Shown: piece after piece, positions 8,685-64,000 of the stretch
How positions within the stretch are numbered: the stretch's first letter is position 1
How the letters are laid out: every line of letters starts with the position of its first letter
Origin: Sphaerolaimus hirsutus
Lineage: Eukaryota; Nematoda; Chromadorea; Monhysterida; Sphaerolaimidae
Direction of reading: 5' to 3'
DNA length: 64,000 nt
NCBI GenBank assembly: GCA_964036195.1
Contig: OZ038459.1
Coordinates: 12,521,206 to 12,585,205, forward strand
Position numbers and translations under genes: made by a program
The notes under the pieces: generated by a model
Seen by the model: only the letters and a program-made list of their open reading frames with translations
Databases searched by the model: none
What the model was told of the DNA's origin: nothing

Positions 8685-8825
8685 AATCCCAGTGAACATT
8701 CCCACATAAATTCAAGTGGTAGCACCAGCGATCAGTCAAATATCAGCGGCCCCGCATCTTTTCCCCACCCACACATAAGCGGCACGTGGGACGCGTTACA
8801 CGAAACGCACCCAAAGTCAGCAAAA

Positions 8826-12302: not shown

Positions 12303-12311
12303 GAGGGGGGG
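12303..12311 (+). promoter_or_regulatory. Polypurine tract
   Basis: A G-rich run (gaggggggg) immediately precedes the 3' LTR at 12312, the standard position for the plus-strand primer. Confidence 0.7.
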
Positions 12312-34615: not shown

Positions 34616-34837
34616 ATAGAACTTCAGTTCTAACGTGCATCTAACTTCTTTACTTTACACTCATCTTACTGCCGTTTTGAGTTAAAAATAGTTTATTGTT
34701 GTTCCCGTGGACACACTTTCTGTGGGATAATTGAGTAAATAAATGTTGAGGTGATTGTTTGTTCTGTTTGTTTAATGTCCGTCCTTGGAGCGAGAAGAAC
34801 GGTAATGCTTTTTTTTGCAAATCCGCGCACCTGATGT

Positions 34838-39250: not shown

Positions 39251-39719
39251 AAGTAAAAAGAGAAGTGAGAAGTGAATTGCAAAGAAAATCGGCAAAAGTC
39301 AAATGAGAAGTGAAATGGCAAGTAAAAAATTAAATTGAAAAACTTTGATAAATGGATACTGAACTGTGATCCATATTTCTAGTTAATTTTTTTGTGAACA
39401 ATCACATTATGCTATTGTCACAAATATGAGTTGTACATAGAATTATGATACACTCCTTCACTCTTAATGGTGGACCAATTTCATTTAAGAGACATTTCTC
39501 AATGAGTTTTGGATATGTCATTTAACACATAGCATATGCAAATATCGTTGGCACATGCTGGCACCATGCCAGCCAATATTTGTAGGATGAAATTCACCCT
39601 GTCACATATAAACTTGGCCCTCATCCAAGTTATGGGTTGCATATTTTTGATCAAAATATCCTGCTGTTTGATGTGATACTGCCACTATATGGGTCTTCAA
39701 TGGTTATAATTTCAAATTG

Positions 39720-39900: not shown

Positions 39901-39971
39901 ATATATTGTTCAGCAAGACACCTACTGGGTGTCATTTGGGGAAGCCTGGGCCACTGGCCACACAAAAGAAG

Positions 39972-40928
39972 TATATCAGTAAAAAAATGGCTAACGCCAA
40001 ACAAAAAGTGGACGCTGCCTCCACAGCAAATAGAGATGAAGTGTGTCTCTCAAATGGAAATGAAGTGCGTCTCTCAAATGGACATTAATATATATTGGAT
40101 GCACAAAAGTAATGTATCATTGCTTAGAAAATGGCATACACTTCACTGATAACACACTTTACTGTGGTTACATATCCCACCTGAATAAAGAAACTATTTG
40201 TATTACATCACAAGAGTTACATGTATTGACTGTTAAATGCACAAAAGCAATATATCATTACATCTGCATTGTGAGAAATGTCTCACATGGAACCCAGACT
40301 TTTACTTATTCAATAGTTTTCAAGGCAGATTACAGTGTTAGACCTATACATCCATGTAAAAAAAGTTTCACACCCTTCAACTATCTGAGACAAAAAGGAA
40401 AAAAATTCACTCAAGTTTATCACAGCTGCGTGAGCTTTTTGGTTTTAAACACACACATAGCACAGCTCACGCAGCTGTGATAAACTTGAGTGAATTTTTT
40501 TCCTTTTTGTCTCAGATAGTTGAAGGGTGTGAAACTTTCTTTACATGGATGTATAGGTCTAACACTGTAATCTGCCTTGAAAACTATTGAATAAGTAAAA
40601 GTCTGGGTTCCATGTGAGACATTTCTCACAATGCAGATGTAATGATATATTGCTTTTGTGCATTTAACAGTCAATACATGTAACTCTTGTGATGTAATAC
40701 AAATAGTTTCTTTATTCAGGTGGGATATGTAACCACAGTAAAGTGTGTTATCAGTGAAGTGTATGCCATTTTCTAAGCAATGATACATTACTTTTGTGCA
40801 TCCAATATATATTAATGTCCATTTGAGAGACGCACTTCATTTCCATTTGAGAGACACACTTCATCTCTATTTGCTGTGGAGGCAGCGTCCACTTTTTGTT
40901 TGGCGTTAGCCATTTTTTTACTGATATA
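39972..40928. repeat. Long hairpin 2 (464-nt arms)
   Basis: Arms 39972-40435 and 40465-40928 are equal in length and almost identical, around a 29-nt loop. The outer edges (atggctaacgccaaacaaaa, agtggacgctgc) and the inner edges (gtgagctttt ... gctcac) match hairpin 1, but the sequence between is different. No protein is credible. Confidence 0.92.
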
Positions 40929-41098
40929 ATGTATTTCTGAACTGATTTCAGATTCCGCGAGTGGACAAGTGACAAGGAAAGTGTCAAATAGTAAGTCAAA
41001 CTAAGAAAAGTAACAAATCAGGTGACAAAGCTATTTTGATTCAGAAAACTTACTTGTCACCCAAAAGTTTACCTGTCACTTGTGTGTCACTTCACTTC

Positions 41099-45036: not shown

Positions 45037-48000
45037 ATGATGACAAAACTGCTATCGCTTTTTTCCCTGGCGTGTCTGCTTATAGTCGACACTCAGGGAG
45101 CTACATTCAGCTCGATATTGAAGAACATCGGCATGAAAAAGTTTGAACGTCAAACGAGTCACCTGGTGCCAATCCCAAACCGTGTAAAATGCCCTGTAAC
45201 ATGTCAAATGTCATGCAAAGTGTCAATAGTCATGTAAAATGCCCTGCAAAATGGCAAACGTACGTTTGCCATTTTGCAGGGCATTTTACATGACTTTTGA
45301 CACTTTGCATGACATTTTACATTTTACAGGGCGATTAACAGGGTCTGAGACTGCCCCCAGAGCCCCACGCTGAAGCGAATCGCGCTCATGGCCAAACGCT
45401 ACAACAAGGACAGCATGGTCATGGTGTTCGATGAAAGTGGCAGCATCGGTGCCGGTCACTTTGAAACTGTACGTGATCGAATTGCCCTCTCTATGGGGCT
45501 TGTGTGAGCAAAAGTGGGTATCCAAAAATTGTAAAATTTCAAAAATTTTAAGTATAAATGTGTATATAGTTCACTTAATGAATTTGTGTAGAGGGTTGTT
45601 TACACTTCCGAGCTTACAATAATTTAAACATTTCAGTTCTACTTCGACGATGGTTTTGGGCGATTCGGTGGGCGAACGTGGCGTCGATGTTTTCGGCTAC
45701 GTCGCTGCGCTACGTTGGCAACGTGGCAACGTGCATTTCCGTTTTTCCGGTGCCCCATTGTGTTATGTGTGTTTTTTCTGGCCAAGGAAAGGATTGGAGG
45801 TATTGAGGATCTGACACAAAGTTGACGCTGTGATGTAAATAGTTGTTTTTATTTGTTTAGATTTTTTTTATTATTAGGTAGTTTTTTTTAAGAAAGTGAG
45901 ACAAGTGAATTGGCAACAATTTTAATTGTGACAGTTTAATTTAAAAGTAATTTTTTACTAGCGGTTTGGATTGCATAACAAAGTTTCAGTTATTTTCTTT
46001 AAGTAAAAAGAGTGACGCTGCAGTTACGTGTCGTAGTGCGTGAATGGTCAGTGATAACTGAGGGCACATGGGTTGAATTTTGACTAACTCTCGTTGCATT
46101 TTTTTTACGTGAGGGTCGCGGCTATTGATCTAGTATGTACTGTGCATTCCTGCATTTCCGGATTGAGAAACAAAAGTTAATTTACAAGCGATTTTACAAA
46201 GGTACACTGATTATAGAGGTGCGATGATGATTGGTGTTGAAAATGAGAGGTAATTAAAAGAATCGAGTCTAACTCGACAGGCATGATCGCATGTCTAAAT
46301 GCCTACTCCCTTGGCTTGTTGTGAGAACAGCCCAGTCCGCCGATATCATCGAAACAAGCACCCATACAGTGACAAGTGTACCTATTTTTGAGTGAGTTGA
46401 GCAGTTCGGTATTTTCGGGGTGTGGTTTTTGCACAGTGCGTATGGGATCAAAAAGCCGTGGCTAACTAATTAATATTCTGGTAGCAGAATGAGTGGTGTA
46501 GCAGCGAGAGTGGTCATTTTCATGATAAGTGCCTTCGGTAGTTAATGGCTGTTGCGTTTCGGCATGTGGCAGTGGATTCACTTGAGTTTGTTGTTTATTA
46601 GTTTTAAACTTCAAAAAGTCATGCAATCCAAACAGGCATTTAAGCTACAAAGATTGAAATTTATAAACTTTCAAGTTGCCAATCATTTGCGTTCGTATTT
46701 CTATTAAGCGTTATACCGACTTCATATTCATTTTAACTTTGGGTTTGGTAGGGAATAGGTAAAACTCGAGTATGCTAATTTTTATTTGATTTTACGTTTG
46801 CAACTTCGTTATTCTTTTATCTACCTAATCCTAGATTGATTTTTTAGTATTTCCCTTTCCCCTAGAAAACTGATAACTTGACATTTGGATATTTAGGAAT
46901 TTATGCAAATTTCGTGGTTGATCTTTATTATACAAAGAGATGAAATAATAAGCCGCTTGTTTTTCCTGTTTTTTCCCCGAATATTTTGATAAGTGTAAAG
47001 GTGATCTGATTTGAGTGCATATTTATTTAATCACTCTGATAGAATTTCCGCTAAGAGTCTTTAAAAAGGTACCGTAATTCATTTTTTCCTTGACAGTCAG
47101 TGTGAAAGTTAGTTTCATTCGCCTTACCGGTATCCTAATCTTATCATGGATTATCCCACTTACGACATTTTTTCGTTGTGCATTAATAATACGTGTGCTT
47201 CTTACGCTTTGGATATCAACGTCATTTTCATTTATTATACGCTCTTTTTGCTGATGGGATTATTGTTCGCGTGTTTATTTGTTTCGCTAATTGCTGTGTG
47301 TTTCCCCGTTCGTGGAGGTGGCTTTGGGATTTCGATAGAGTTCGCTGAGTAAAATTTGAATCGCCCGCCATTTTTTTCGCGCTAAAACAGGTTTTTACAG
47401 TATCTCGTGTGCTTTTCCTGTTTTTTTCATTCTTGTCGCATTCGTTCATTTTCTCATTTTCTATTTTTATCCCCGCTCTTGTTCCCAACCCGATTTTTGG
47501 CGCGTGAATTCTTTGTGTTTTTGTGTAGTTGATCGACGTATCCTGTAAACTGACGCCGTGAATAATTTTAGGTATGCCCGTTTTAAAATTCCGTGTGTCT
47601 GTAAAGTCGTTTGTAAGCATGCTTCTCGTGGTATGTGGAAGTGTTGTCTGGACTTGGCTTATGTTGTTGCGTATAAAAGCGTACCGTAATTTAGAGTAGG
47701 GGTCGATTCAGTCGAAATTGCTTCGGTTTCATTTTTCTTGGAGTTTTTTCGAAGGTTTTGTGCCGCTGGTTAGAAACTCGCTCTCAGTGTGTTCCCTGTG
47801 TTCTATCTAAATGTGTGAATTCTGAGTCTAAAAATCGCCTAAAATAAAATCTCTTCTAAAAACTTCGGACCCCTTGGTGTAAATTAGACATTCAACTAAT
47901 TACTGGTGCGTTGATAAAAACGCCATTCGCTAAAAAAAGCTAACTTAATTGACGTAGCGTACACCTGTGATATTCACTTCGGTGAATTCACCATTGTGCG

Positions 48001-51000
48001 TTGCGAATTCAATCGGTAGTCGCTTTTCCGTTGCCTTACTTTGTCGCTCATCCAACGAGTAGGTGTGAGATCGGTAAAACTTGGCAGTTTGCCATAGTGA
48101 AATTTGGTTGAGTAAAAAGTAGCCGGTGAAAATTCATGACAACTGGTAGCAGCGAGTGGTTTGTTTAATATTCCCAGTGAGTTCAGGCGACTGATCACCG
48201 TTTGACAATCGCTGGTGAGAACAAACGAACCACCGCCCGGCTGGAGGAACGGAAGGCTACCCGATCGACGCAACCGATAAGCACGGATATTTTTGTTTTG
48301 GGACGCGAAACTGACGAAATTATTAGTGGGCAAAAAAGGGAAAAGCGGAAAAGTAAGAAAAAACCGAAATCGGTTCAGTTCAGTACGGACGCGCACTGTT
48401 CTGAACCGGGAACCGCTGAGTTGAGTGACGAACCTAACGATTTTGACGTCAACTGCTGGGTGGACGCGGAAGGACCGGTCCCTGAAAGAGGTGCGGAGGA
48501 GTCATTCCCGACCTGTGAGCAAGGCAAGCCAAGTGCGGGTGCGGAGGTGCCATTCCCGACCGCAGGGCAAAGTAAGTTAGGGCACCGAAGCGCGAGTGCC
48601 GGGTACCGAAGCGCGAGTACCCAGTCGTCGAGTGAGTGTGTGTTTTTCCGGTATTCTACTTTGAGTATGGCGCATGCGAGCGGTAGTGGTGTGAACACGG
48701 GTCCCGATGTGGTGCAATTGTTGATTCAAGCGAAAAATTTGACTTTGAATCAAATTAATTCGTCGATAGTGGGGAATTCGGTTCAGGGGTCAGAATGGAA
48801 CCTTAGTCAGGTTGTGACTCAAACGGTGAGTATTGCCGCTTATTTGTATAATCAGCGACCCATGAGTTCTTTGGAAAATGGGAACATGAGTGATAATGAC
48901 GAAAAATTAGTGTCATTAGTAAAGTTAGGTGTTGATTGTTATAATTTGCGAAATGATGTGAGTCAAATTGCGGACGCGATTAATGCATTTGCTGAGCATA
49001 TTCATTTAGAAAAGCCTGATATGCAAGCGATTAATTCTGTAATTAGCGCTGTTTCTAATTCGGGAGGGTGTTCTACCGCTACCACACCACCTATACCTGC
49101 TGTGAGTATGATTGCTACTAGTAGGGAGGGTTATGCTGCTGCCATGACCGCGCTTACTGGGCAGGTGATACCTTTCAAGGGGCGCGCTGATGATAAATTT
49201 GCTGATTGGCGTAAAAATTGGGACGCAGTTTGTGAGGCGTTGCAAATTCCGACGGATGAGCGAAAATCGCTGCTTCCGGTTTATTTGCGTGACAGCGCGC
49301 GTTCGATTTACATGTCGCATAAGAGTGAATTGATTAATTTAGATTATGAGGAGTTTATGGACACTTTGGAACGTTATTATACTAACCCCATTTCGGAGCA
49401 TCATGCGCAAAGGGAAGTAATTAGTAGTGAGCAGGGCGAAGATGAAGATGTGTTAAATTGGTCAGTGCGGCTGGAGAAAATTATAAAACGCGCTTTCCCG
49501 AAACTTTCAAAAATTGAACGCGAAAAGATGGCAGTGGCGAAATTTGTCAGTGGATTGTATCCTGATATCCGTAGGAATGTATCTATTACTGCTGGGGCTA
49601 AGTTTCAAGACGTAGTCAATAATGCGCGCACGCAAGAAAGTTTTCTGGAAATTGATAAGGACAAAGTGGGTGGTAAGAAGAAGTCAAAATCCAACGCTGA
49701 ATTAGTTTCAGAAGCCACCAATTCGGTAATCGAGCGAATTTTTGCTTTAGGGGGTGCGGGAGCTTTCGGAAATTCCCCGCCCGTTCCGGCGGCGGCGGAA
49801 AATCCAAAGTTTGAGGAACAGCGAGTGAAATTGGAGGAACTTTCTAGGCAGTTAGAGGATAAGGATAAGCGTTTAGTTGACTTGGAAAAGCAATTGATAG
49901 GTAACAATGCTGCGAAACCAGTTTCCAAATTTAGGCCGCGTAAATTTGATGAGGGCTGTTATGAATGTGGGGCAGATGATCACTTTCGCTCTGATTGTCC
50001 TAAATTGACAGAAGAGGAAAGAGCGCGCTTTCGAAATTTTCGGCGCGGGCCGCCGCAGCGACCGATGAATAACTTCAGAGGTCCAGCGAATATGATGCGC
50101 TCTGCACAGCAACCTGTATATTCCATGCAAGCGCCGCCTTACCTGTATTATCCCCCTCCCGCGCAAGTGTCAACTACTAGTTGGTCCCCAGTGCAACAAG
50201 TTCAATCATCGCAAATGGCCATTGCGGCCCCTCCGTCAACTGAATTGACTGCGTTAAATCCGACGCGCGTGTCTGCGAACTCAGTGAATCATGCACGCAG
50301 CGTGCAAGAAAGTAAGGAATACGTGCGCATGATTAGGGTTGTACCGGGTCTTGAAAGTTCAGATGAGGAAGCGGAGGATCCATGCAATCCGCCTGAAATA
50401 ACGCCGCAAGAACATCAATTCATGCTCGAAAGAGAGGCTTGGATTATGCCTTGGGTTTATGCGCGTTCGTTAGATAGCATGATTTTTCGAACAAAGTGGT
50501 GGGCTCAATTGCAACACATGGGTTTGCAGGGGTTGAATATAAGCGGGTTTTGTGAGCATGCTGATGAGCATCCGCATGATGACCCTGAGGACACGTTGAC
50601 GTACGTTAAGTTAGAAGCGCTGCTAGAATTGACCATGCATACATTTATGTGTGAACCGCCGGACATTAGTTTGTCGCGAACGTCATCTGACTCTGAATTG
50701 TATGTGTTATCCGAGTATTGTGAAACGAGCGTGCCGACTTTGTACCGAACGTGGTCGGAACCGAGTATGTTACCCAGTGTGTTGAACCGTGTGTTTTTCC
50801 TGTGCTGTCTATTTACGTTTTTTGCAAGTGCTGACGCCCTGGGTGTTCCAAGTGGTGGCGTTGTTAAGAAAAAAGGAGTGTCAGATGAATGGATTTTGAC
50901 CGTGCGAAATTTTCTTGAGGGATTTATCGCTGGAATGTGTGCTTCCGTGTTTTTGAGATATATTCTGCCCGCTTTGTGTGAACTGGTGTTGTATTTAGTG

Positions 51001-54000
51001 TTCACAGTGTGTGATTGGATAAAAATGCGAGTGTTGCGGGTTCAATTAAATCGCATGTTAGCAATAGAAAATAGGCGCAATCCTGCAAGGGGTGCGACCC
51101 CCGTGACACCGCCGCAAAGGTTAAATCCAGTTAGCGCTGACAGTTCAGGGTATGGTGCCGATATTGAAGAAACGCCAGTGAGTAGATTTAAGCGTTTGCC
51201 GCCGCTGCGCGTTCCTAAAGGTTCTGCCGTCATGGAAAAGGTGAATGTAGTCACGCTGACCAGTGAAGAAATTGCGAACATCAAAAGTATTACGGCTAAG
51301 CGTAAGGAACTCGTGCCAATTTACTATAGTCCGTCGATTACGGTAGAAATTGAGGGGAATGAATACAAAAGGTGTCTGTTGGACACAGGTGCGATGAGGT
51401 CATTGTGCAGCCCGCTGGTGTTGGCTAGGCATCGAAATAATTGCATAGCGTTTGATGAGGTCACGCCTGTGGGGGGATTGCAAAGCGCGTCTCAATGCAA
51501 ATTGCAAATTGAGGGTCAATTGGAACTTCAAGTGATGATTACCGGGAAAGCGTTTTCTATTGTATTTCAGGTGATTAGCGGTTTGTCGGACGACATTTTA
51601 TTAGGCGCTGATGTATTGAGGCATATGGTTATTGATATGCCTGCGCGTGAGTTGCGAATTGAGAGTGGCGATGCGCGTAAAAAGTTGACTGTGCCTTTTG
51701 ACAACCCGGCGCCTGTAGTGCAAGAACGGCATATTTATGCAGTTGTGACTGAACCGACTGAAATTAAGCCGCGGCATGAAACGATAATTAGTGCGAAATT
51801 ATCTGAACCAATTGATGAATTGACGTTTGCGATTGAGCCTTTGAACGAATTTCATGTGAAAACGGGTGTGTTTGCAGCTAATGCTGTTTATGAAAGCGCG
51901 AGTGAATTATTTCCGGTGAGGTGTGTTAATGTGACTGAAGTGCCAGTAAAGTTGCAGGTGGGCCAGAAAATTGCCATCGTAGAGCCAGTGGAGTGTGTTT
52001 TACAAGTGCGACGAGGTGATCCGCCTGCTGAGTGGGTGCGAGAGTGCCGCGAGCGTGATATGAGTTTTACCGATACTATACTTGAAGCTAGTGAGGAAAA
52101 AGTACCAACGAAGGGCACTGTACCTTCAAAAGCAGCGAATACGACTATGAAAGTGGTTTGTGCCGATGGGAGGGAAATGGATTTTGAAGTACCGGTTGAA
52201 TTGGACGAAATTAAGCGCCAGCAATTAAAAGAGTTAATTTTGACTCATCAGGATGCTTTCGCAAGGGATAAATATGATTTGGGATACAGTGAATTGGTTG
52301 ATTATCGACTTCAGTTGACTAGTAAAATTCCGGTCGCGTGTCGAATGTATAGGTTGAGTTTGGATGACCAGCAGTACTTAGAAAAGCATTTAAGTTGCCT
52401 GCTTGAGCATGACGTCATTGAACACAGTACGAGTCCGTACTGCGCGCCGACATTAGTTGTTACTAAGCCGGATGGTGCCAAGCGCATGGTGATAGATTAT
52501 CGACGATTAAATGCAGTAGTTCACGCTCCCCAATTTCCGCTGCCCAGATTAGACGATACAATAGAGTCATTGCACAGTTGCAAATATTTTTAGCAGTGTC
52601 GATATCAATCAAGCGTTTTACAATATTGCGCTGCATCCGGATGATAGACATATTACGTCGTTTCGTAATTGTTTTGGTCAATTTCAGATGAAACGCTTGC
52701 CGATGGGATTAAAGTGTTCCCCGGCTTTAGCGCAGCGCTGTTTTGAAGTCACAATGGCTGGATTATTGCATCGAAATGTGTTGGTATATATAGATGATTT
52801 GCTCATTTACAGTAGGTCATGGGAAGATCATTTGAGTGATATAAGTCAGGTTTTGTCGCGTTTGATAAGTAGCAGTTTTAAAATACACCCAAAAAAGTGT
52901 TTTTTCGCGCGCACAACTGCTGTTAAATTCCTGGGTTATATGGTAGGGCGTGAAGGGATTTGTATACCCGATGATAAGCGAAAGTATTTGAGTGACTGGC
53001 CGCTACCTGTGTGTGTGCGTGAAGTTAAAGCGTTTTTAGGTGCCGTTGGGTTTTTCCGGAGATTAATTCATAAATGTGCTGAATATGCCGCTCCTTTGTC
53101 TAATTTAACTCGAACGAAAACTGAATTAGGAACTGAAAAGTATAGCGGAAGTACTCCCGTAGATTTAAATGCGAACCCCGCCGCTTTGGAAGCTTTTAAT
53201 AAGTTGAAAGTGATGGTGGCTGAAAGTCCCTGTATACAGTATCCTGATCCCAGTAAACCGTTCATAATTATTACCGATGCTTCTAAAGTTGCATTAGCTG
53301 GCATTTTAGTACAACGCGCTGAACCTGCCGCCGCTTTGCATGCGTGTTCATTTTATAGTCGAAAACTTTCCGAAGCGCAATCCCGATGGCCTGCAATTAC
53401 GCAAGAAGCATGTGCTATTTTTGAGAGCATACGCAATTGGCATTGTTATTTAGCGGGCCGGCCGTTTGAAGTGTGGACTGATGCGAAAAGTATTTCATGG
53501 GTGAAGAATCCAAATTTGGAAACCCATCCCCATACGGGTTTGCACCGATTTGCGCTTGCTATTCAATCATATCAAGTTACTTTTAAGCATTTGCGTGGGA
53601 AAAGTAACGAATTGGCTGATGCTTTATCGCGCCGGCGTGATGCACCCGTTGAATTTGATGAGCGTGTTAATTTGGACGAAGCGTTTGAAGAATATGCATT
53701 TGATATACCTGTTGATGAATTGGCGAGAATTTTGACTGAGGAAATGGCGTTGTTAACATCTGAGGAACATTTGGCTTGTCAAGCGGTAGCTAAGGCCATG
53801 GCGCGATTGGCTTCTGCTCAAAATTGGCTGAAACATGCGAAAATGAAGTCTTTGGAACCGTCAGTTACGGTAGCTACTGAACTGCCAGTGGCAAGCGTTG
53901 CTACTGTGCGGGCGCCGCATCCAATGACAATGCGTGTGCGAAGTAAAAAGAAGGTGGAGTCCAACTCTGAAAATGCTTTGAAATCGCCGCCCAAAAGTGA

Positions 54001-57000
54001 CGATGCGCCTAAATTAATGGCTGGTGGCCGCCGTTCTGTTCAATTAATTAAGAAACCGGAAAAACTCGATGCTTTACCTCCTCCCATTACTCCAATTGAA
54101 GAGTTGTCGCGTTTGCAAAAAGAAGAACCGTATATAATTACAATTCGTCGTATGTGCGAGGAATCTACTTTGCGTAGGGCCCCACCGTTCTTCATTGATC
54201 AATTTGATGTTGTCAGGCGTGATGCGGAACCGTCAATATTAGTGGGTGAAAGGAAATACGACCCTGCGTGCATTCCCCAGTCACTAGTTGTCACTGTGTT
54301 AGAGTTGGCTCATAATCATCCCACTGCTGGACATTTAGGTGTGATGAAAACGTTTGAAAGATTGCGCGAATTTGCTTGGTTTACAAATATGCGTCCAGAA
54401 TGCGCTAGATGGGTTTCTACTTGCCCTTCGTGCAACGCGAAGAAAGGATTGCGCCGCTCAATGAAAACTCAAATTCAGAGCCGGAAAATCGCTAAGTTTC
54501 CTGGTGATTTTATTGCGATTGATGCAGTAGGGCCATTGCCAATTACCGAGAAAAGGAATGTGCATGTATTGGTATTTGTGGATCAATGTACGCGTTTTGG
54601 TTTAGCAGTGCCTGTTCCTAATTTGAAGCAAGATACTGTGGCTATTGCGTTTTTGCAACATGTGTTACCGATTTTTGGTGTGCCCGCTGTAATCTTATCC
54701 GACAATGCACCAAGCTTCATTGGCGGCATTTTTGCGGAATTGCTACGTTATCTAAATACAGTGCAGCATAAGTGTTTCAACTACACGCCAAAGGGGAATG
54801 GTTTGGTTGAGCGTAGGAATGGCGTCTTAATGGAAATAATTTCGCATTATGTGAATGGCTCGCATTCGGATTGGGACAAACACTTAGGCGCCGCTGTCTA
54901 TGCGTATAATACGTCTATGCACCCCTCTATGAAAGTGACACCATATGCGTTGCTATTTGGATCAAATTCTCCGTCACTTTGGGAACGTATGATCGAGCCG
55001 ACGGGAAATGGCACCGATAAGACCGATAAGCCGACGGCGTACAGTCCTTTTGTGTCAAATTTAGACGCGCGACTTTCGGACGTCCGCGCGGCCGCGCATT
55101 CGGCTTTACAGCGCGCGCAAGAAAAAGAGTGTTTTTATGCAAATCGCAGTGCGCGCCGCTTGAATTTGAAGCCCGGTCAATCAGTTCGCGTTTATTCGCC
55201 CCGAATTCTTCGAAAGTTAGGTCGCGTTAAGAAGTTCACGCATCATTATATTGGCCCGTATGAATGTTTAGATTATGTGCATCCCATTGTGACCGTGTTT
55301 AATAGGTTGTCTAAGAAAACTTATACCGTTCATGCTGATCGCGTTAAATTAACAAATGAACCAGTTAATCCCACCTATTCGCAGATTTTCGGTTAAAAAC
55401 CCCGAGATTTTCCGCTCTTCAACCTAAAGTGTCCCAAGTCAATTATTCCGTTCGAAAATTCAATTAAAATTCATTTTCATTTTTATTCGGATTAATTTCG
55501 ACCGTCAATTTGTGGTGAGTTCGGGGTTGCAATTTTTGTGTTTTTGGTTGTGCGCGAGATAATTTTGTAGCAAAAAGTTGGTTTTTTTATGTAAGAGGTA
55601 AAGCGCGAAAATTTCATAAGTGTTATTAATTGTTTGTTCCTAATTGTCGTCGCAGTTTTAATTCACCAGTTATTCATATAATCGCATTTATTTCGTTCTA
55701 AACTTGTTCTTCAATTTCGTTCTCATTTTCGCCCATTTCGCAACAAAATAAAAATTATTTTTGGCGCAATACGTTCAACGTAGTGCGTTGAAAATAATTC
55801 GCAATTTTTCGATTAGGGTGTCGCTCAGACCTTCGTGCATTTCGGTGCCGACATTCTGGGTGGCGCATTTTAAGTAGCAATAAGTTGTGTTTTCCGGTGC
55901 TCTACTTTGAAGTGTGAAATATGACTAGTTCGGGTGGCGTACCCATGGGTGGGTATGGAGCGAGTTCCAGTTCGTATCGTGGCGGGCGCATAGCCAGAGC
56001 GCCGCTCAAGTCGTGGACTTCTCATGGAAAACAGGGCGGTGACACTATTCCGCCGCTGCCCTACAATCCTCCTCGAAACGCCCGGTCGACTTGTCCTGAA
56101 TTCGTCATCAACCAGAAGTTGTCGGGAATAGTGGATCGAGTTCACGTCGGTAACGAGCCGCGTCCTACCAGTTATCAATGCCACATTCGTTTCGACGGCG
56201 ATGCGCAGGCGCTTTTGGAAAGTTATCCGGAGTGGTCGGAGGCGGAAACGGCTTATCCCTTTTTCACCTATTCGGTCAACAAAGCGGAGCGCGCTCGTGA
56301 GCGGTCGGTGCAGAAAATTTTGAAGGAATATCGCGAGACTAACGAAGCTTACGATATGTTTTTGCCGCTTGTCCGCCACGGCATGCATTTTGTCGCGACT
56401 GGTATCAGTAGGGTTAGCGCCAATCCGAAATATTGGGAATTGCGAGGCGTCACAATTATGAAAAATGACGCTCAAATGCCATTGTTTTTGGGCCGCCCTG
56501 TTGTTATTTGTTCGCAAGGACAGGTTGACCTCTCCGTCGATGAGCCAGCATCGGAAATTTCACAGAGAGGACAGGAAAATCGCGAAGGATATCATCCTTA
56601 TCCGGCCAAGTGGAGATACTTGCGTTTGAGGGCAGCGTTCACCCCTTCGAGGTACATTAGTGCACCCCCCTTCAAAGGCGCCGACGAGCGGGATCCGGGC
56701 CCTGAAAAGTTAATTTTTGCGCACAGCGAAAATGTCATGGAAAGTGACATACACCCGCACGCCGGACAATTAGGTGTGGCGCATGTAGAATATCACGCTT
56801 TTGACGACGCCGGCAAAGTCAACAACTTTTATTGGGGTCATGCGTATGGCGTGCGTATTTTTTCGGCGCGGCAAATCGAGGCTGGTATGGAGTGGAAGGG
56901 CGAAATGAATAGAGATTACCTCACCTCTCAGCTGCAGCTTCGTTCCATCTTTTTGGCCGCTGCTAACGTGTGTCACGAAGCGCATTTGCGATACACTGCG

Positions 57001-60000
57001 ACTAGGGCGAAAGCGGTGCGCGCGCAGGTGACTTGGCAAAATGGGCCGCGGGGATTAATTGCGATAATTAGGTGGGAGCGCGTGCATTTGAATCCAGCTG
57101 CTGCGATGCGCGACACGGCCGAGTGGCACAGGAATAAGGCGCAGGGCTACATGTTGAATTTTACTTCGCCCATGTCGTCGCTACAAATCGTCGAAGCTGA
57201 TCCCCGGGGGGAGGAGCGCGCTTTGACTGGCCGCCCGCAAATAAATTTACGCACGGTCAGCGCCGACATCACTGCCGAGGCGGTGCAGTTGATCGCCAAG
57301 CCGGATGTGTTGGTGCCGCAGGCGCTGTCGCCGCATTTGCTGCCTAATTGCGATTACATGGTGCGCGGTTCCGCTTTATCGCCTAGCTACAATGGCCGCA
57401 TGGAAACTTTGGAGCGGTTGTGCATAATGGGGCCTAGTGGCTACCGGCCAACCGAGAGCAACACCGGAATGCTCGCTGTGGAAGACCAGGTCAAAATGGC
57501 GGTAGTGCTGCACAAGCAGTTGAGCCAAGTTGAGACTGATTGGCAGCGCACGCTCGACAAAATTGAGTCTGACGGGTTGTACGCCGAGGTGCGCAGAGGC
57601 GCATGCGAAGATTTATTGCAAGCGCAGCAGGGTGATTTTCGGCCGCAGGAGGGGCAGGGGCGTGTGATTGCGTCAGTTATCAAGTCTGTGCGAAAAACTG
57701 CGCCGCTATTGTTGATGTGTGATTCACCGTTCGGTTCCGGTAAAACGACTGTGCAAAGTCAGTGTGCGTACGCGGTTGCGTTCAAATTTACCGAGAAAAA
57801 TGGCCCGCCGAACCCGCTGAAGAGGGAATTGCCCTCTGATGCAAACCAAAATGCGCTTTACCACTCCACAATGACTACTTGCAGTGTGAATTCGGCCGCT
57901 GATGAGTCTGCCAGACGGTCGTTGCAAAGTTTGGCAAACATTGGTCTGCCTAATTTGGAAACGGTCGTGGAAGTTTTGCTGCGCGATAGGGAGAGGTGGA
58001 CTGCGATGGATGATAAGCCAAATTTTCAAACACCTGGCTATGCGCGTTTTTGTCAGGTGCGCGCCGCTTTCGCGATTCGCGTGCTGAGTCCATTGTTGGA
58101 AGTTGACGATCGCTACGTCGATATGACGCTCCAGCAATTGCCGCTGCTGAATTTGATCGCGCAGAACATGCCCATGCATGTGATCCGATTGAATGACCAC
58201 TGGCTAACTGCCTATGAACGCTTTACCGCTCAACGCCATATTTGTGACACTTTGAACGAGATCATCGCGAACAATCAGCACCCCGCCGACATTTTCGAAG
58301 CCATTCGGTCGCAGTTGCCTTTGGTTCGTTTGTCCATCGACGAAGACGACGAGGATGACCTGGTGCCGCTGGACGATGGTCAAGAGGAGGGCGTGCAGGC
58401 GTGGGGGGCCGCGGCTGGCTTTGTCGATGACAACCAGGTGTGGGGCAAAATTTACAAGCGCGAAATGCGACGCCTCGTTAGGGTGGCTACTAGGTTGCAT
58501 AAGGTGGTGTTGAATGTGCTACAGCCAGGCCAAGTCCATGTGACCTTGGATTCATCGCGCGATAAGCGACTGCAAGTTTTGAAATATGCCGCGGTATTTG
58601 TGGACGAGGCGTCTCTGGCGGATGAAACTGCGATTTTTGGCGCTGTTTCAAATGCTCGACTCCCCCACAATGGCTTGGTGCTTTTGTTTGGCGATAGCAA
58701 GCAGTTGACCCGAATGGTCAGGCCGCATTCATGGCTCGCTCCGATCCTGAAACCTGATCCATCGCTGATCAATAGGTTGGTGGAAGGTGTGTTGTGCCCA
58801 ATTCTGAAGCTCGAGACTGTCTTCCGCGGCCACGACGCGCTGATTCAAGCGAATTCAGTCGCTGCGTACGATGGCCAATTGCGCGCGTTCCACGAATACA
58901 GCCAGTGGCAAGATACTTTGCCGCTCATGGCTTGCGGTGCCGATCAGGTGCCTTTGTCTTCTGTGATCGTGCACATGGGTTTCGAAACGAGCGAGGGCGT
59001 GTCTGTTAAAAATTTGACGGAAGTGGACATTGTGGTGCGCGTTGTGCAGCAATTTGTCATTTTGGCGCTGAACAGCGAGGGCGAGAATGTCGTTCCGTGG
59101 AGTGATTTAGAAAGCGCCGATTCGCTGCTGATTGTGTGTTTCTATTCCGCGCAGGAGAGAAGAGTGATTGACGAATTGGTGCGACTGAGCTGGGCGCAGT
59201 TGTTAGGGGGTGAGGGGTTCCCTGGCTATTTAGCGACCCCAGCGTTTTGGCGGAAAAAAGTCATCACTGCCGATCGAGCGCAAGCTCGTGAAGCGCACGT
59301 GGTGATTGTGTCATGTGTGAGGGGCAGCGCGCCGCGCGTGGACGCTACTGGACACCCGTCGCAGCGCGAGCGCGATGTGATGGACAGAATTGGCTTTTTG
59401 GCGATGCCGGAGCGGTGCAACGTGGCCACGTCTCGCGCCAAAACGGCCAGAGTTGTGATCATGAACGCCGCTACCGTGCTGCATTCTGAATTTTTCTGGC
59501 GCTTTGTGGCGGTGGAATTAGGAAAGGGGCACGTTTTTGCGTACCACGAGCGACATTTGTGGGAGAGTGACCCGTTGGCTAGGTTTCTGGGCCACTGGAG
59601 AAGTGCCCCGGTCGATCTGCCAGAACCCGCTCCGCCCGTGCAAGAAGAAGAAGAAAATGAGGTTCCGCCGCCGCAGGAAGAAGTTCAGGAGGTGGATGTG
59701 AGCGAACAGCGAGTGTCCCCTCAGCCAGACGCCGATGTCGTTCCCGCTCCCGATTCCCCAGACGTACAAATGTTGCCGCCCGAAGAGCAGGAGGAGGAGT
59801 CGTCGGAGAAAGTTCAGCCGCGCGCGGATGAAAAAGCGAGTTGTTCTCGGTCTCGGCGTCGGTATCGCGGTCGTCGTCGCTCTCCCTCGTCGAGTTCTTC
59901 CTCTTCCTCTAGTTCTTCGTCGGGTTCGTCAAAATCGGGATCGAGTAGTGAGACCGATTCGGCATCGGAGTCTGAACACGCGCCGCCCGTACCGGCACAC

Positions 60001-63000
60001 AAACAGAAAACGCACCAGGAGGAGGAAGTGATGGAGGTGGAACAGGAGCAAAGTGAACAAGGTGCTCAACAGCAGGAACCGACAATGGAAGGTCAACGGC
60101 AAGCGCAAGAACCAGAGCCAGATACTGAAGAGGCCAATAATGCAATTATTGGAGAAAAATTGGATGAGTTAATTCAAATGGCGGGCGAGTTGAACACCGA
60201 GTTGGACGCTGAGCGACAGCAACAGTCCATGAGCCCAGACCGACAGATGCTAAGAGAAATGGACGCCATCCAGGAGGAGGCCAATGAGTCTGCTGAGCCC
60301 ATGCAGGAAGATGAGCAGGAGCAGCCTGAGGAAGCGGCCGCACAGCAGCTGCAGCAACCTGTTCAGGTTGTTGTAGTTGGCGCGTCACCGCCACCGCAAG
60401 AGGAACAGAGTCCGCCCCCGCCAGTGACTCCAACTTTGGCAGGTTTGGAGCCAGAGGAGGAGATGGAAGCGGAGTAATGGTAATTTAGGTGTACAGGAAT
60501 TTTTTTGTTTTTGTTTTTAGTTGTTTTTGTTAGAGCGAACGTTTTACCAGTAGAATTGAGCTTTTGTTGAATTGAAAATTGAATTTTCATTGAGTTTTAC
60601 CGGTTCAAAAGTTTTTTTTGTGTTCTCAACAAAGTGTGGAAAAAATGCGTAATGGTTATCAACAAATTTAAAATTGGTTTAAAATAGTTCTCAAAAAACG
60701 GGAATTTAGTTCAATTCGTTTCTTTGATAGTTTTGCTGTGCTTCGATTTTAGCCGGGAGGTAAAATGTATGGCTGGTGGAGTTTGTGAGCAAAAGTGGGT
60801 ATCCAAAAATTGTAAAATTTCAAAAATTTTAAGTATAAATGTGTATATAGTTCACTTAATGAATTTGTGTAGAGGGTTGTTTACACTTCCGAGCTTACAA
60901 TAATTTAAACATTTCAGTTCTACTTCGACGATGGTTTTGGGCGATTCGGTGGGCGAACGTGGCGTCGATGTTTTCGGCTACGTCGCTGCGCTACGTTGGC
61001 AACGTGGCAACGTGCATTTCCGTTTTTCCGGTGCCCCATTGTGTTATGTGTGTTTTTTCTGGCCAAGGAAAGGATTGGAGGTATTGAGGATCTGACACAA
61101 AGTTGACGCTGTGATGTAAATAGTTGTTTTTATTTGTTTAGATTTTTTTTATTATTAGGTAGTTTTTTTTAAGAAAGTGAGACAAGTGAATTGGCAACAA
61201 TTTTAATTGTGACAGTTTAATTTAAAAGTAATTTTTTACTAGCGGTTTGGATTGCATAACAAAGTTTCAGTTATTTTCTTTAAGTAAAAAGAGTGACGCT
61301 GCAGTTACGTGTCGTAGTGCGTGAATGGTCAGTGATAACTGAGGGCACATGGGTTGAATTTTGACTAACTCTCGTTGCATTTTTTTTACGTGAGGGTCGC
61401 GGCTATTGATCTAGTATGTACTGTGCATTCCTGCATTTCCGGATTGAGAAACAAAAGTTAATTTACAAGCGATTTTACAAAGGTACACTGATTATAGAGG
61501 TGCGATGATGATTGGTGTTGAAAATGAGAGGTAATTAAAAGAATCGAGTCTAACTCGACAGGCATGATCGCATGTCTAAATGCCTACTCCCTTGGCTTGT
61601 TGTGAGAACAGCCCAGTCCGCCGATATCATCGAAACAAGCACCCATACAGTGACAAGTGTACCTATTTTTGAGTGAGTTGAGCAGTTCGGTATTTTCGGG
61701 GTGTGGTTTTTGCACAGTGCGTATGGGATCAAAAAGCCGTGGCTAACTAATTAATATTCTGGTAGCAGAATGAGTGGTGTAGCAGCGAGAGTGGTCATTT
61801 TCATGATAAGTGCCTTCGGTAGTTAATGGCTGTTGCGTTTCGGCATGTGGCAGTGGATTCACTTGAGTTTGTTGTTTATTAGTTTTAAACTTCAAAAAGT
61901 CATGCAATCCAAACAGGCATTTAAGCTACAAAGATTGAAATTTATAAACTTTCAAGTTGCCAATCATTTGCGTTCGTATTTCTATTAAGCGTTATACCGA
62001 CTTCATATTCATTTTAACTTTGGGTTTGGTAGGGAATAGGTAAAACTCGAGTATGCTAATTTTTATTTGATTTTACGTTTGCAACTTCGTTATTCTTTTA
62101 TCTACCTAATCCTAGATTGATTTTTTAGTATTTCCCTTTCCCCTAGAAAACTGATAACTTGACATTTGGATATTTAGGAATTTATGCAAATTTCGTGGTT
62201 GATCTTTATTATACAAAGAGATGAAATAATAAGCCGCTTGTTTTTCCTGTTTTTTCCCCGAATATTTTGATAAGTGTAAAGGTGATCTGATTTGAGTGCA
62301 TATTTATTTAATCACTCTGATAGAATTTCCGCTAAGAGTCTTTAAAAAGGTACCGTAATTCATTTTTTCCTTGACAGTCAGTGTGAAAGTTAGTTTCATT
62401 CGCCTTACCGGTATCCTAATCTTATCATGGATTATCCCACTTACGACATTTTTTCGTTGTGCATTAATAATACGTGTGCTTCTTACGCTTTGGATATCAA
62501 CGTCATTTTCATTTATTATACGCTCTTTTTGCTGATGGGATTATTGTTCGCGTGTTTATTTGTTTCGCTAATTGCTGTGTGTTTCCCCGTTCGTGGAGGT
62601 GGCTTTGGGATTTCGATAGAGTTCGCTGAGTAAAATTTGAATCGCCCGCCATTTTTTTCGCGCTAAAACAGGTTTTTACAGTATCTCGTGTGCTTTTCCT
62701 GTTTTTTTCATTCTTGTCGCATTCGTTCATTTTCTCATTTTCTATTTTTATCCCCGCTCTTGTTCCCAACCCGATTTTTGGCGCGTGAATTCTTTGTGTT
62801 TTTGTGTAGTTGATCGACGTATCCTGTAAACTGACGCCGTGAATAATTTTAGGTATGCCCGTTTTAAAATTCCGTGTGTCTGTAAAGTCGTTTGTAAGCA
62901 TGCTTCTCGTGGTATGTGGAAGTGTTGTCTGGACTTGGCTTATGTTGTTGCGTATAAAAGCGTACCGTAATTTAGAGTAGGGGTCGATTCAGTCGAAATT

Positions 63001-64000
63001 GCTTCGGTTTCATTTTTCTTGGAGTTTTTTCGAAGGTTTTGTGCCGCTGGTTAGAAACTCGCTCTCAGTGTGTTCCCTGTGTTCTATCTAAATGTGTGAA
63101 TTCTGAGTCTAAAAATCGCCTAAAATAAAATCTCTTCTAAAAACTTCGGACCCCTTGGTGTAAATTAGACATTCAACTAATTACTGGTGCGTTGATAAAA
63201 ACGCCATTCGCTAAAAAAAGCTAACTTAATTGACGTAGCGTACACCTGTGATATTCACTTCGGTGAATTCACCATTGTGCGTTGCGAATTCAATCGGTAG
63301 TCGCTTTTCCGTTGCCTTACTTTGTCGCTCATCCAACGAGTAGGTGTGAGATCGGTAAAACTTGGCAGTTTGCCATAGTGAAATTTGGTTGAGTAAAAAG
63401 TAGCCGGTGAAAATTCATGACACTTGGTTGTTTTCATGGTTCCAATTACAAAACTCGACCAAAATCTTGTCATCTCCTTAAACAGTAGTTCTTGGACTGA
63501 CCATTTATGTAAACTGATAACTGCACCCTAATACTAGTGCGCTAAGTCTAAATGGTCAGTTGCGGGATGGTGGAAGCGTCAATCAGCGTTCGCGTCGCCA
63601 TTCAGTTTTTGAACGAGTTTTCAAATTGGCACCATGAAAACTAGCTTGTGTGGCCACAATGTCATGGGTACGTATCGCAACTCAAAACTATCATTTCAGA
63701 GTAAAGTTTTCGCGGTAGACGTTATAAACAGCGAGACGACTTCATCTGGCACACTGAATCTGAATATTGGAATCAAAAAGTTTGGTGATTATGCGTCATC
63801 GGTGCTTGGATTGACCACTTCTGCTAGTCAAGCGTTGGCGGGTGTAAATGGCATGACGTATGGCCGCGCTGGCAGCACAAACATTGCTGAGTGAGTTTTT
63901 TTGACGCACCCACCCGAAATTGAATTTACCCAAATGTTCCACATTGAACTCCACCGAACGAGCCTCAAAAATTCCAGCGGACTTTCAAAGGCAGACGAGC
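45037..64000 (+). CDS. Secreted von Willebrand A-domain protein, interrupted by LTR element, 3' end outside window
   Basis: Exon 1 (45037-45165) encodes a signal peptide (MMTKLLSLFSLACLLIVDTQ) and ends phase 0. Exon 2 (45361-45502) contains MVMVFDESGSIGAGHF, the D-x-S-x-S metal-binding motif of vWA domains. Exon 3 (63707-63890) continues with GIKKFGDYASSVLG and YGRAGSTNIA, the T-N position of the second metal-binding loop. Exon 4 starts at 63978 (GLSKADE) and runs off the window. Phases agree: exon 2 ends with one base, exon 3 supplies two (acceptor GTAAAG), exon 3 to 4 is phase 2. The spacing between SGSIG and IGIKKFGD is that of a normal vWA fold. Intron 1 is a palindromic element. The LTR element sits exactly at the end of exon 2, so correct splicing would require removal of about 18.2 kb; the allele is probably impaired. 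Confidence 0.75.
45166..45360. mobile_element. Palindromic element coterminal with intron 1 of the vWA gene
   Basis: The intron begins GTGCCAATCCCAAACC and ends CTGAGACTGCCCCCAG; its body is a palindrome centred on ggcaaacgtacgtttgcc, with arms tgtcatgcaaagtgtc and gacactttgcatgaca. Donor GT and acceptor AG are the terminal bases of the element (preceded by CTG). The flanking exons join in phase 0 (L then SPTLKRIALM). It is the same family as 4340-4523 and 34838-34971. Confidence 0.8.
45503..48141 (+). mobile_element. 5' LTR (2,639 bp) of helicase-bearing Ty3/gypsy-type element
   Basis: Begins TGTGAGCAAAAGTGG and ends AAATTCATGACA (TG...CA). It is collinear with 60784-63422 at a constant offset of 15,281 with no difference seen. 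The 4-bp CTTG duplication is at 45499-45502 and 63423-63426. TATAAAAG at 47672-47679, an initiator-like TTCAGTC about 30 nt downstream, and AATAAA at 47843-47848 place U3 up to about 47707 and R to about 47870. Such long LTRs are unusual for this superfamily. It contains a 68-aa ORF. Confidence 0.93.
47146..47352 (+). CDS. Small membrane-protein-like ORF inside the 5' LTR
   Basis: 68 aa from an ATG in U3 (MDYPTYDIFSLCINNT). It has one strongly hydrophobic stretch, residues about 27-53 (IFIYYTLFLLMGLLFACLFV...), then a short tail with PVRGGGFG. The short N-terminus contains an N-x-T/S-type site (NNTC). It lies upstream of the TATA box, so it would need another promoter. Identity in both LTRs reflects recent duplication, not selection, so the evidence that it is a gene is only its composition and length. 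Confidence 0.35.
   Translation: MDYPTYDIFSLCINNTCASYALDINVIFIYYTLFLLMGLLFACLFVSLIAVCFPVRGGGFGISIEFAE
48144..48162 (+). promoter_or_regulatory. Primer binding site, initiator-Met tRNA-like
   Basis: TGGTAGCAG starts two bases after the 5' LTR and is followed by TGGTTT at the expected spacing; this matches the complement of the 3' end of animal initiator-Met tRNA at about 16 of 19 positions (from memory of that tRNA). Confidence 0.7.
48641..48664 (+). promoter_or_regulatory. Leader motif before gag (copy 1 of 2)
   Basis: TGTTTTTCCGG followed by TATTCTACTTTGA, ending two bases before the gag ATG at 48667. An almost identical string occurs at 55888-55910 before the helicase ATG. Function unknown: it could be an internal promoter, a splice or translation signal. 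Confidence 0.6.
48667..55396 (+). CDS. Gag-Pol polyprotein of the Ty3/gypsy-type element, one frameshift
   Basis: The first in-frame ATG is 48667 (MAHASGSGVN); the frame is open back to 48181, so an N-terminal extension from a non-AUG or spliced start is possible. Capsid-like sequence lies at about 49180-49600. A CCHC zinc knuckle (CYECGADDHFRSDC) is at about 49957-50001. Aspartic protease LLDTGA is at about 51380, with ILLGADVL about 75 residues later. The RT catalytic YIDD is at about 52790. RNase H starts at about 53260 (IIITDASKVA) and includes LADALSRR. The integrase HHCC motif is at about 54310-54435 and its D,D,E residues lie in AIDAVG, LSDNAP and VERRNG. Protease-RT-RNase H-integrase order is Ty3/gypsy. 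A single extra T in a T run at about 52585-52589 shifts the frame inside RT and creates a stop at 52591-52593; the +1 frame is then open to 55396. Between zinc knuckle and protease is an unusual hydrophobic region (50790-51030). Confidence 0.88.
55397..55920 (+). other. Non-coding spacer between pol and helicase ORF
   Basis: AT-rich, 524 nt, no ORF; ends with the second copy of the leader motif. Suitable position for a promoter or splice acceptor of a subgenomic transcript. Confidence 0.5.
55888..55910 (+). promoter_or_regulatory. Leader motif before helicase ORF (copy 2 of 2)
   Basis: TGTTTTCCGG then TGCTCTACTTTGA; it differs from the gag copy by one T indel and two substitutions over 23 bases. 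The ATG follows 10 bases later. Confidence 0.6.
55921..60477 (+). CDS. UPF1-like superfamily-1 helicase encoded by the LTR element, 1,518 aa
   Basis: Intact ORF in the env position. Residues 1-590 have no motif I recognise. Helicase motifs in order: I, CDSPFGSGKTT (about 600-611); Ia, TCSVNSAADE (about 650); II, VFVDEAS (about 892-898); III, LLFGDSKQL (about 921); IV, LETVFRG (about 964); V, ITADRAQAREAHVVIVS (about 1115); VI, RCNVATSRAKTARVVIMN (about 1164-1181). The DEAS box, GDxxQL and N-V-A-x-S/T-R-A-K signatures are those of UPF1/SMG-2-like SF1B RNA/DNA helicases. Walker A has Ser where Gly is usual at the first position. Residues 1235-1518 are acidic/Pro/Gln-rich with an SR-type patch (SRSRRRYRGRRRSPSS, then a serine run). 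No membrane segment or signal peptide, so it is not an envelope. The uninterrupted frame and complete motifs suggest a working ATPase acting on element RNA or cDNA (inference). Confidence 0.88.
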   Translation: MTSSGGVPMGGYGASSSSYRGGRIARAPLKSWTSHGKQGGDTIPPLPYNPPRNARSTCPEFVINQKLSGIVDRVHVGNEPRPTSYQCHIRFDGDAQALLESYPEWSEAETAYPFFTYSVNKAERARERSVQKILKEYRETNEAYDMFLPLVRHGMHFVATGISRVSANPKYWELRGVTIMKNDAQMPLFLGRPVVICSQGQVDLSVDEPASEISQRGQENREGYHPYPAKWRYLRLRAAFTPSRYISAPPFKGADERDPGPEKLIFAHSENVMESDIHPHAGQLGVAHVEYHAFDDAGKVNNFYWGHAYGVRIFSARQIEAGMEWKGEMNRDYLTSQLQLRSIFLAAANVCHEAHLRYTATRAKAVRAQVTWQNGPRGLIAIIRWERVHLNPAAAMRDTAEWHRNKAQGYMLNFTSPMSSLQIVEADPRGEERALTGRPQINLRTVSADITAEAVQLIAKPDVLVPQALSPHLLPNCDYMVRGSALSPSYNGRMETLERLCIMGPSGYRPTESNTGMLAVEDQVKMAVVLHKQLSQVETDWQRTLDKIESDGLYAEVRRGACEDLLQAQQGDFRPQEGQGRVIASVIKSVRKTAPLLLMCDSPFGSGKTTVQSQCAYAVAFKFTEKNGPPNPLKRELPSDANQNALYHSTMTTCSVNSAADESARRSLQSLANIGLPNLETVVEVLLRDRERWTAMDDKPNFQTPGYARFCQVRAAFAIRVLSPLLEVDDRYVDMTLQQLPLLNLIAQNMPMHVIRLNDHWLTAYERFTAQRHICDTLNEIIANNQHPADIFEAIRSQLPLVRLSIDEDDEDDLVPLDDGQEEGVQAWGAAAGFVDDNQVWGKIYKREMRRLVRVATRLHKVVLNVLQPGQVHVTLDSSRDKRLQVLKYAAVFVDEASLADETAIFGAVSNARLPHNGLVLLFGDSKQLTRMVRPHSWLAPILKPDPSLINRLVEGVLCPILKLETVFRGHDALIQANSVAAYDGQLRAFHEYSQWQDTLPLMACGADQVPLSSVIVHMGFETSEGVSVKNLTEVDIVVRVVQQFVILALNSEGENVVPWSDLESADSLLIVCFYSAQERRVIDELVRLSWAQLLGGEGFPGYLATPAFWRKKVITADRAQAREAHVVIVSCVRGSAPRVDATGHPSQRERDVMDRIGFLAMPERCNVATSRAKTARVVIMNAATVLHSEFFWRFVAVELGKGHVFAYHERHLWESDPLARFLGHWRSAPVDLPEPAPPVQEEEENEVPPPQEEVQEVDVSEQRVSPQPDADVVPAPDSPDVQMLPPEEQEEESSEKVQPRADEKASCSRSRRRYRGRRRSPSSSSSSSSSSSSGSSKSGSSSETDSASESEHAPPVPAHKQKTHQEEEVMEVEQEQSEQGAQQQEPTMEGQRQAQEPEPDTEEANNAIIGEKLDELIQMAGELNTELDAERQQQSMSPDRQMLREMDAIQEEANESAEPMQEDEQEQPEEAAAQQLQQPVQVVVVGASPPPQEEQSPPPPVTPTLAGLEPEEEMEAE
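60478..60783 (+). other. 3' untranslated spacer of the LTR element
   Basis: AT-rich, no ORF. A purine-rich stretch (gccgggaggtaaaatg, then ggctggtggag) lies just before the 3' LTR and would be the polypurine tract, though it is not a canonical pure run. Confidence 0.5.
60784..63422 (+). mobile_element. 3' LTR of the helicase-bearing element
   Basis: No difference seen from 45503-48141. Followed by the CTTG target duplication (63423-63426), which carries the last four bases of host exon 2 and then the original donor region GTTGTT. Confidence 0.93.
62427..62633 (+). CDS. Small membrane-protein-like ORF inside the 3' LTR
   Basis: Identical to the ORF at 47146-47352 by virtue of LTR identity: 68 aa with one hydrophobic segment. 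In this position it could be transcribed as the 3' end of the element's own full-length RNA, in the place where retroviruses keep accessory genes. Confidence 0.35.
   Translation: MDYPTYDIFSLCINNTCASYALDINVIFIYYTLFLLMGLLFACLFVSLIAVCFPVRGGGFGISIEFAE

Follow-up and report, generated by a model that had tools for sequence, protein, structure and literature searches.

We found that a Ty3/gypsy-type long terminal repeat (LTR) retrotransposon of the nematode Sphaerolaimus hirsutus carries, in the position usually associated with env, an intact open reading frame (ORF3) of 1,518 aa that codes for a UPF1-like superfamily 1 (SF1) helicase, and that at least two related families in the same genome carry one as well. 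The complete 17.9-kb element occupies positions 45503-63422 of the window, i.e., the whole 64,000-nt stretch of contig OZ038459.1 (assembly GCA_964036195.1) analyzed here, and is arranged as gag, protease, reverse transcriptase (RT), RNase H and integrase followed by ORF3 (Table 1). All copies described below come from this one genome (348 Mb in 762 contigs), and their counts are lower bounds, since the best candidates of each search were scored and families A to C (A being that of the window) fill the scored lists.

The helicase is a regular component of the element

The boundaries of the element proved as exact as the initial annotation of this DNA had described them: the two LTRs match at 2,639/2,639 nt and have the termini TG and CA, with CTTG adjoining the element on either side. 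Its assignment to the Ty3/gypsy type also holds, given that the Pfam domains of ORF2 follow the Ty3 order (RT, RNase H, integrase), repeated in family B, and that its best solved relative in the Protein Data Bank (PDB) is the Ty3 Gag-Pol (E 3.1e-43); the assignment is based on domain order and this structure match.

Searching the genome with the full-length helicase gave open frames in 31/31 scored matches, with 98-100% identity (best 31 of 957 candidates). When a 340-aa core was used as the query (best 119 of 455 candidates scored), 116 matches belonged to family A, with 78-100% identity; 71 of them had frames of 1,500 aa or longer, the other 45 being shorter, partial or broken. Starting from pol (best 50 of 2,960 candidates, window included), the helicase core was found at the expected distance in 47/50 copies, 44 of these cores lying in frames of 1,500 aa or more. 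Of the remaining three pol copies, two (L040 and L041) lead colinearly into the open N-terminal part of a helicase, whereas the third is cut off by the end of its contig; helicase sequence is present in 49/49 resolvable pol copies. Chance is excluded, because there are 116 core copies of the same family and two further families.

The initial annotation had itself named two ways in which its reading could fail, namely, a one-off capture of a host gene or a separate mobile element, nested at 55.4-60.7 kb and having ends of its own. The G+C content of ORF3 (0.54-0.56), above that of ORF1 and ORF2 (0.43-0.47), would fit such an origin. However, at 30/30 helicase loci (window included) the junctions are alike, with the 3' end of pol on the left flank and LTR sequence on the right, the resolvable pol copies all have helicase sequence, the gene order is repeated in family B and also in family C, where it is seen from the RT and helicase pieces of a single copy, and the divergences of pol and helicase are congruent across families. 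Both explanations are thus ruled out by the copies to the point of being extremely improbable; no search was made for copies of the ORF that have ends of their own and lie outside LTR elements.

ORF3 codes for a UPF1-like helicase

The alignment of the three families has helicase motifs I, Ia, II, III, IV, V and VI in order in ORF3, as first annotated, the other two families being 38 and 40% identical to that of the window in this alignment. Invariant or nearly so are the glutamine preceding motif I, MCDSPFG[ST]GKTT, TC-VNSA-DE-ARR, DEASLA, LLFGDSKQLTR, LETVFRGH, the motif IV block and the blocks of motifs V (TAD-AQAREA, SCVR) and VI (NVATSR). The SF1 helicase claimed for the open 1,518-aa frame is borne out by the Pfam model AAA_12 (E 1.4e-19 in the window), which the helicases of the three families match with 70.9, 83.3 and 88.9 bits (cutoff, 27), whereas AAA_11, a supportive and not a defining model, stays below its cutoff (at most 23.5 bits versus 27), with a match confined to the end of the profile.

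A profile built from the three families matched 14 distinct PDB chains, all of them UPF1, SMUBP-2, a helicase-like protein, NAM7 or SEN1. Human UPF1 was the best match (E 9.4e-9), followed by SMUBP-2 (2e-6), chains of a 5'-3' RNA helicase-like protein (2.4e-6), yeast NAM7 (5e-5) and SEN1 (0.46); ORF3 searched as a single sequence reached only E 0.014. The kinship to UPF1 that had been proposed is therefore upheld by the profile, but not an identity with UPF1 proper. UPF1 has, ahead of its core, a Cys/His-rich (CH) domain that meets UPF2 and the release factors, and no Cys/His cluster was found before motif I of ORF3, where there is no invariant Cys ahead of C600 and the six His are scattered. 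Since it has no counterpart of the CH domain and AAA_11 remains below threshold, ORF3 is, judging from its sequence, UPF1-like and not UPF1. In addition, the spacing between motifs I and II is about 150 residues longer than in UPF1. Relatives of the UPF1/SMUBP-2 kind have their motifs in the same order, while ORF3 adds an N-terminal region and a tail of its own. The former, in which the three families share 19-31 invariant positions in every hundred as far as residue 599, may form a separate domain. A membrane glycoprotein character was not found in ORF3, which has one marginal hydrophobic stretch, located within the helicase core. A single-sequence structure model of residues 575-1215 had a mean predicted local distance difference test score of 33, too low for a fold search.

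Protein searches were made on candidates sharing words with the query, out of 5.8 billion proteins. Residues 1-1260 had no match at E 1e-3 among 7,994 candidates and residues 866-1206 none at E 0.1 among 3,957, and the three-family profile detected one distant plant MAGATAMA-3-like protein among 7,998 candidates (E 3e-7; 26% over 21%). A viral origin of the helicase is unsupported: the profile prefers UPF1, and scans of IMG/VR for the helicase and pol, done with exact patterns and able to find close relatives only, gave no relative.

Pol and helicase have been inherited together in three families

The three other matches of the core query were only 52% identical and revealed a second family, B. 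Its locus L039 contains the end of an ORF1, an ORF2 60% identical over 948 aa to that of the window, a 262-nt gap and a helicase of 1,334 aa (39% identical over 1,257 aa). With the core of B as the query (best 119 of 465 candidates scored), 70 matches belonged to B and 49 to a third family, C, at about 52% from B; its helicase at L043 has 1,323 aa, and an RT of the same lineage lies about 3 kb upstream (L044). When the RT of family B was searched for (best 150 of 1,386 candidates scored), 69 B copies were obtained, and a B helicase core was located 4.5-8.5 kb downstream in 55/69 and in 42/46 of those with RT frames of at least 900 aa. Families B and C are presumably LTR elements too, to judge from their pol.

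Pairwise identities were compared with one copy per family and without a tree. Before and after the frame change described below, RT identity is 72/79% between A and B, 72/77% between A and C, and 81/86% between B and C; the helicases share 39, 40 and 45%, respectively. Both proteins thus appear to agree on the arrangement (B,C),A, and since both place B and C closest, the comparison favours one old acquisition of the helicase and subsequent descent with pol.

Selection on the helicase

The ratio of nonsynonymous to synonymous change (dN/dS; Nei-Gojobori count) of ORF3 is 0.113 in 30 copies of family A, which are the best by protein likeness to the window, a choice that lowers dN and favours whole frames; their lengths differ by multiples of three only, which proves little given this ranking bias. 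By codon columns, dN/dS is 0.10 (1-560), 0.04 (700-860), 0.052 (860-1210) and 0.21 (tail). The 11 lowest-ranked of the 30 copies gave 0.094, and a set not chosen by helicase likeness (the window, L040 and L041; 830 codons) gave 0.13, from pairwise counts of 72 synonymous changes and 32 others. The value for pol is 0.007 in 8 copies that are the best by pol score, and it is hence not comparable with those of ORF3. Conservation between families, at about 40% shared residues, is a stronger sign of selection than dN/dS. Taken with the excess of synonymous change, it suggests that ORF3 is an old, selected gene of a high-copy lineage.

A conserved +1 frame change inside the RT domain

The gag-pol part of the element consists of two ORFs in +1 relation, which overlap at 52565-52593 within RT. 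The sequence TTT TAG CAG at the end of ORF1 is kept in 17/17 usable copies of the three families (8/8 A loci, window included, 4/4 usable B and 5/5 C), out of 18 fetched; one B fetch (L047) fell off the element and was left out. One A locus has a silent change just before it, and the preceding codon varies (TAT, TAC or TTT) while TTT TAG C is invariant and both frames are open. At the junction of family A, ORF1 ends with SCKYF and TAG and ORF2 resumes with SSVDINQAFYN; the equivalents are SNCKFF/SSADINQAF in B and CSCKYF/SSADINQAF in C. SSVDINQAFYN corresponds to the motif A region of RT and, compared with usual RTs, no residue is missing across the A junction. A frame of 943 codons is present in 50/50 scored pol copies (best 50 of 2,960), and a single one of these has a TGA within it.

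These features are those of a putative slip site: overlapping frames, a slippery UUU and a slow A-site codon (UAG C), the UUU preceding UAG permitting a clean +1 re-pairing. In Euplotes, UUU UAG is listed among the putative +1 sites (PMC5011710). No stimulatory fold was detected downstream of the site (z scores of -0.44 and -0.71, pseudoknots being outside the fold test), and such a structure is not obligatory. The frame change could instead be an inherited defect of amplified non-autonomous copies, which help from other copies can let spread, and the absence of a stimulatory fold would agree with that. This explanation seems quite improbable, considering that the site is identical in all the usable copies although the families differ by 14-28% in the adjoining RT and keep their frames open, that TTT TAG C does not follow the variation of the codon before it, and that all 50 scored pol copies have the 943-codon frame, with a single inner TGA.

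Frameshifting in +1 is used by Ty1-Ty4, which shift near the 3' end of gag, whereas here the change lies inside RT; in a survey described in the same source, pol is in +1 in only 2 of 51 animal retroelements (PMC5009743). We found no precedent for a frameshift site inside RT among the papers listed in searches of the openly licensed literature, and a split pol with a conserved +1 frame change in RT would be, as far as known, new to this class of elements. If programmed, this split would be a novel location for gag-pol frameshifting, with the output of RT being set after part of its domain has already been made.

Proposed function of the helicase

Considering the data above, we propose that the UPF1-like helicase remodels the RNA-protein particle of the element that encodes it, with protection of the RNA as the preferred branch, and we estimate the probability of this reading at about 0.55. 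The helicase would be translated on its own, probably from a shorter RNA, and would act as an ATP-driven remodeller of that particle. Ribosomes that do not shift on ORF1 would terminate at 52591-52593 (UAG), which lies 8.2 kb before the 3' LTR, and complete RT, RNase H and integrase would come only from the shifted fraction. The RNA of the element would thereby be an extreme case of a decay target with a long 3' untranslated region (UTR); since the unshifted stop lies so far before the 3' LTR, UPF1-dependent decay should be attracted. Decay of mRNAs with long 3' UTRs has been described (PMC4764554). The likeliest sub-mechanism would be the shielding of the genomic RNA from this decay: a UPF1-type helicase could dislodge the host UPF1 or compete with it, or else free the RNA so that it can be packaged and reverse-transcribed. 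Retroviruses are known to block UPF1, as with HTLV-1 Tax (PMC5789848), whereas the element described here would encode its own UPF1-like enzyme. A separate helicase of this type, maintained in three families or more, would be an accessory function new to Ty3/gypsy elements, and it offers a connection between retrotransposons and RNA surveillance that can be tested. It has to be considered doubtful that the frameshift inside RT and ORF3 form one linked adaptation, in which the helicase shields the RNA from the decay and termination machinery of the host or reuses that machinery.

Several observations weigh against the remodelling proposal or against the selection on which it leans. The highest dN/dS, 0.27, is that of codon columns 560-700, which hold motif I, the 30 copies behind these values were ranked by likeness, and 45/116 A core copies have frames below 1,500 aa. 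In family B, 14/69 RT copies have no nearby helicase core; ten of these have shorter frames, some at contig ends, and two of the four full-frame copies have a B core about 18 kb downstream. No LTRs were seen for B and C, there being no repeat inside the 10 kb of L039. With no counterpart of the CH domain, ORF3 is less likely than UPF1 to act directly at the terminating ribosome, and roles in reverse transcription, packaging or evasion of silencing fit as well.

Among these other roles, the helicase may be a cofactor of reverse transcription or packaging that unwinds RNA or strips proteins so that RT can copy the 18-kb element, a possibility that we hold only tentatively and place clearly behind remodelling for RNA protection. 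It would be consistent with the joint inheritance of helicase and pol in three families, with the very long template and its 2.6-kb LTRs, and with the conserved region at residues 60-570, which lacks a Pfam match and could target the particle; however, elements of the Ty3 type presumably manage in general without a helicase. Less probable still, and in our opinion unlikely, is that ORF3 counteracts silencing by small RNAs, the role put forward for the viral SF1 helicases of insect retrotransposons. Relatives of UPF1 such as MOV10 work in small-RNA pathways. Weak suppressor activity of a transposon SF1 helicase is reported from a plant system (PMC6338049). However, the helicases of the insect elements are viral, whereas ORF3 is closest to UPF1 and the match to Viral_helicase1 is sub-threshold (family C, E 0.06).

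Comparison with known systems

The initial annotation knew of nothing similar, which stands as far as Ty3/gypsy is concerned: no UPF1-like helicase in such an element was found among the papers listed in searches of the openly licensed literature. It needs qualifying for retroelements at large, since SF1 helicases and enzymatic ORF3s have both been reported in other types. With Ty3 itself (Metaviridae) the element shares the order RT-RNase H-integrase and LTRs with a 4-bp duplication, from which it differs by its helicase ORF3. SF1 helicases of viral origin occur in insect long interspersed nuclear elements (LINEs) and in two Ty1/copia fusions (PMC5563155, PMC6338049); these are also borne by retroelements but are fused into LINE ORFs or copia proteins, unlike the separate UPF1-like ORF of this Ty3/gypsy-type lineage. 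The LTR elements of bdelloid rotifers have an ORF3 of the GDSL or DEDDy type (PMC5408684), in which, as here, an enzyme gene shared within a lineage replaces env, although the enzymes differ; the word "helicase" appears once in that text. In Cer1, the CERV protein is an extra product that serves the genomic RNA of its own element in nuclear export and, in the portion of that source consulted, is not described as a helicase (PMC10309623). The word "helicase" is absent from the text of a review of additional ORFs in plants (PMC7264820). LTR elements with other genes in the env position are known, and a separate UPF1-like helicase in that place would be new.

Anatomy and surroundings of the element

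Table 1. Features of the retrotransposon (positions in the 64,000-nt window)
Feature	Position	Strand	Basis or remark
Target-site duplication CTTG, left	45499..45502	.	Boundary comparison
5' LTR, 2,639 nt	45503..48141	+	Zero mismatches versus 60784-63422, TG...CA
Putative primer-binding site TGGTAGCAGCGAGTGG	48144..48159	+	Starts with TGG, 2 nt past 5' LTR; read from sequence
ORF1: gag with putative PNMA-like capsid and putative zinc knuckle, then hydrophobic stretch, protease and N-terminal RT part	48202..52593	+	Pfam
Hydrophobic stretches 50767-50826 and 50920-50979, after the zinc knuckle and before the protease	50767..50979	+	Hydropathy scan
ORF2: RT from motif A, RNase H, integrase	52565..55396	+	+1 frame; first ATG 52688; Pfam
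Putative +1 frameshift site TTT TAG, then C	52588..52593	+	End of ORF1, inside RT; three families
Spacer between pol and helicase, 524 nt	55397..55920	+	Indels among copies
ORF3: UPF1-like SF1 helicase, 1,518 aa	55921..60477	+	ORF, Pfam, alignment, profile
ORF3 N-terminal region (about residues 60-570)	56098..57630	+	Conserved between families, no Pfam match
Helicase motif I (LMCDSPFGSGKTT)	57712..57750	+	Invariant in three families except one S/T and one L/I
Helicase motif II (VDEASLA)	58600..58620	+	First residue I in family C
AAA_12 region: LETVFRGH block, motifs IV to VI	58762..59466	+	Pfam E 1.4e-19
C-terminal tail, acidic, Ser/Arg- and Gln-rich	59608..60474	+	Poorly conserved between families; dN/dS 0.21 among A copies
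3' LTR, 2,639 nt	60784..63422	+	LTR comparison
Target-site duplication CTTG, right	63423..63426	.	Boundary comparison

The putative gag domains of ORF1 fall just under their Pfam cutoffs, both for the PNMA-like capsid (E 5e-5; 23.2 bits versus 25) and for the zinc knuckle (zf-CCHC, E 0.003; 18.1 bits versus 20.8), and PNMA2 was the sole gag match of ORF1 in the PDB (E 0.3). The protease has a weak Pfam match (E 0.04). The hydrophobic stretches of ORF1 are at an unusual position for a membrane segment; in planarian Burro elements, an Env-like part placed between gag and pol offers a parallel (PMC6431247). At the 5' end, the putative primer-binding site after the LTR may resemble the end of an initiator Met tRNA. 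No clear purine run adjoins the 3' LTR, and Rfam and tRNA scans of the 64-kb window gave no matches. Within the 3' LTR, a 150-nt part (61471-61620) is nearly invariant among 30 copies (nucleotide diversity pi, 0.0009), with pi of 0.027 and 0.017 in the windows beside it, and is perhaps a promoter or R-region signal.

The window also contains a second LTR element (8218-12765), with 456-nt LTRs that are 99.8% identical and a probable GTGG duplication (by eye). Its ORFs (8673-9614 and 9517-11931) include a DTG motif and have no Pfam match, and since no RT or integrase was seen in it, this element is probably non-autonomous. It is bracketed by older direct repeats, about 89% identical, at 5800-7018 and 14018-15149. 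Two large, near-perfect inverted repeats (99% complementary) are located at 39961-40939 (476-nt arms) and 34124-34617 (230-nt arms), and a degenerate tandem array of AATGTCAAGTGATA-like units extends over 37271-39288. On both sides of the helicase-bearing element, the flanks (45400-45502 and 63423 onward) resemble by eye a von Willebrand A domain (FDESGSIGAGHFETV), and its insertion may therefore have broken a host gene.

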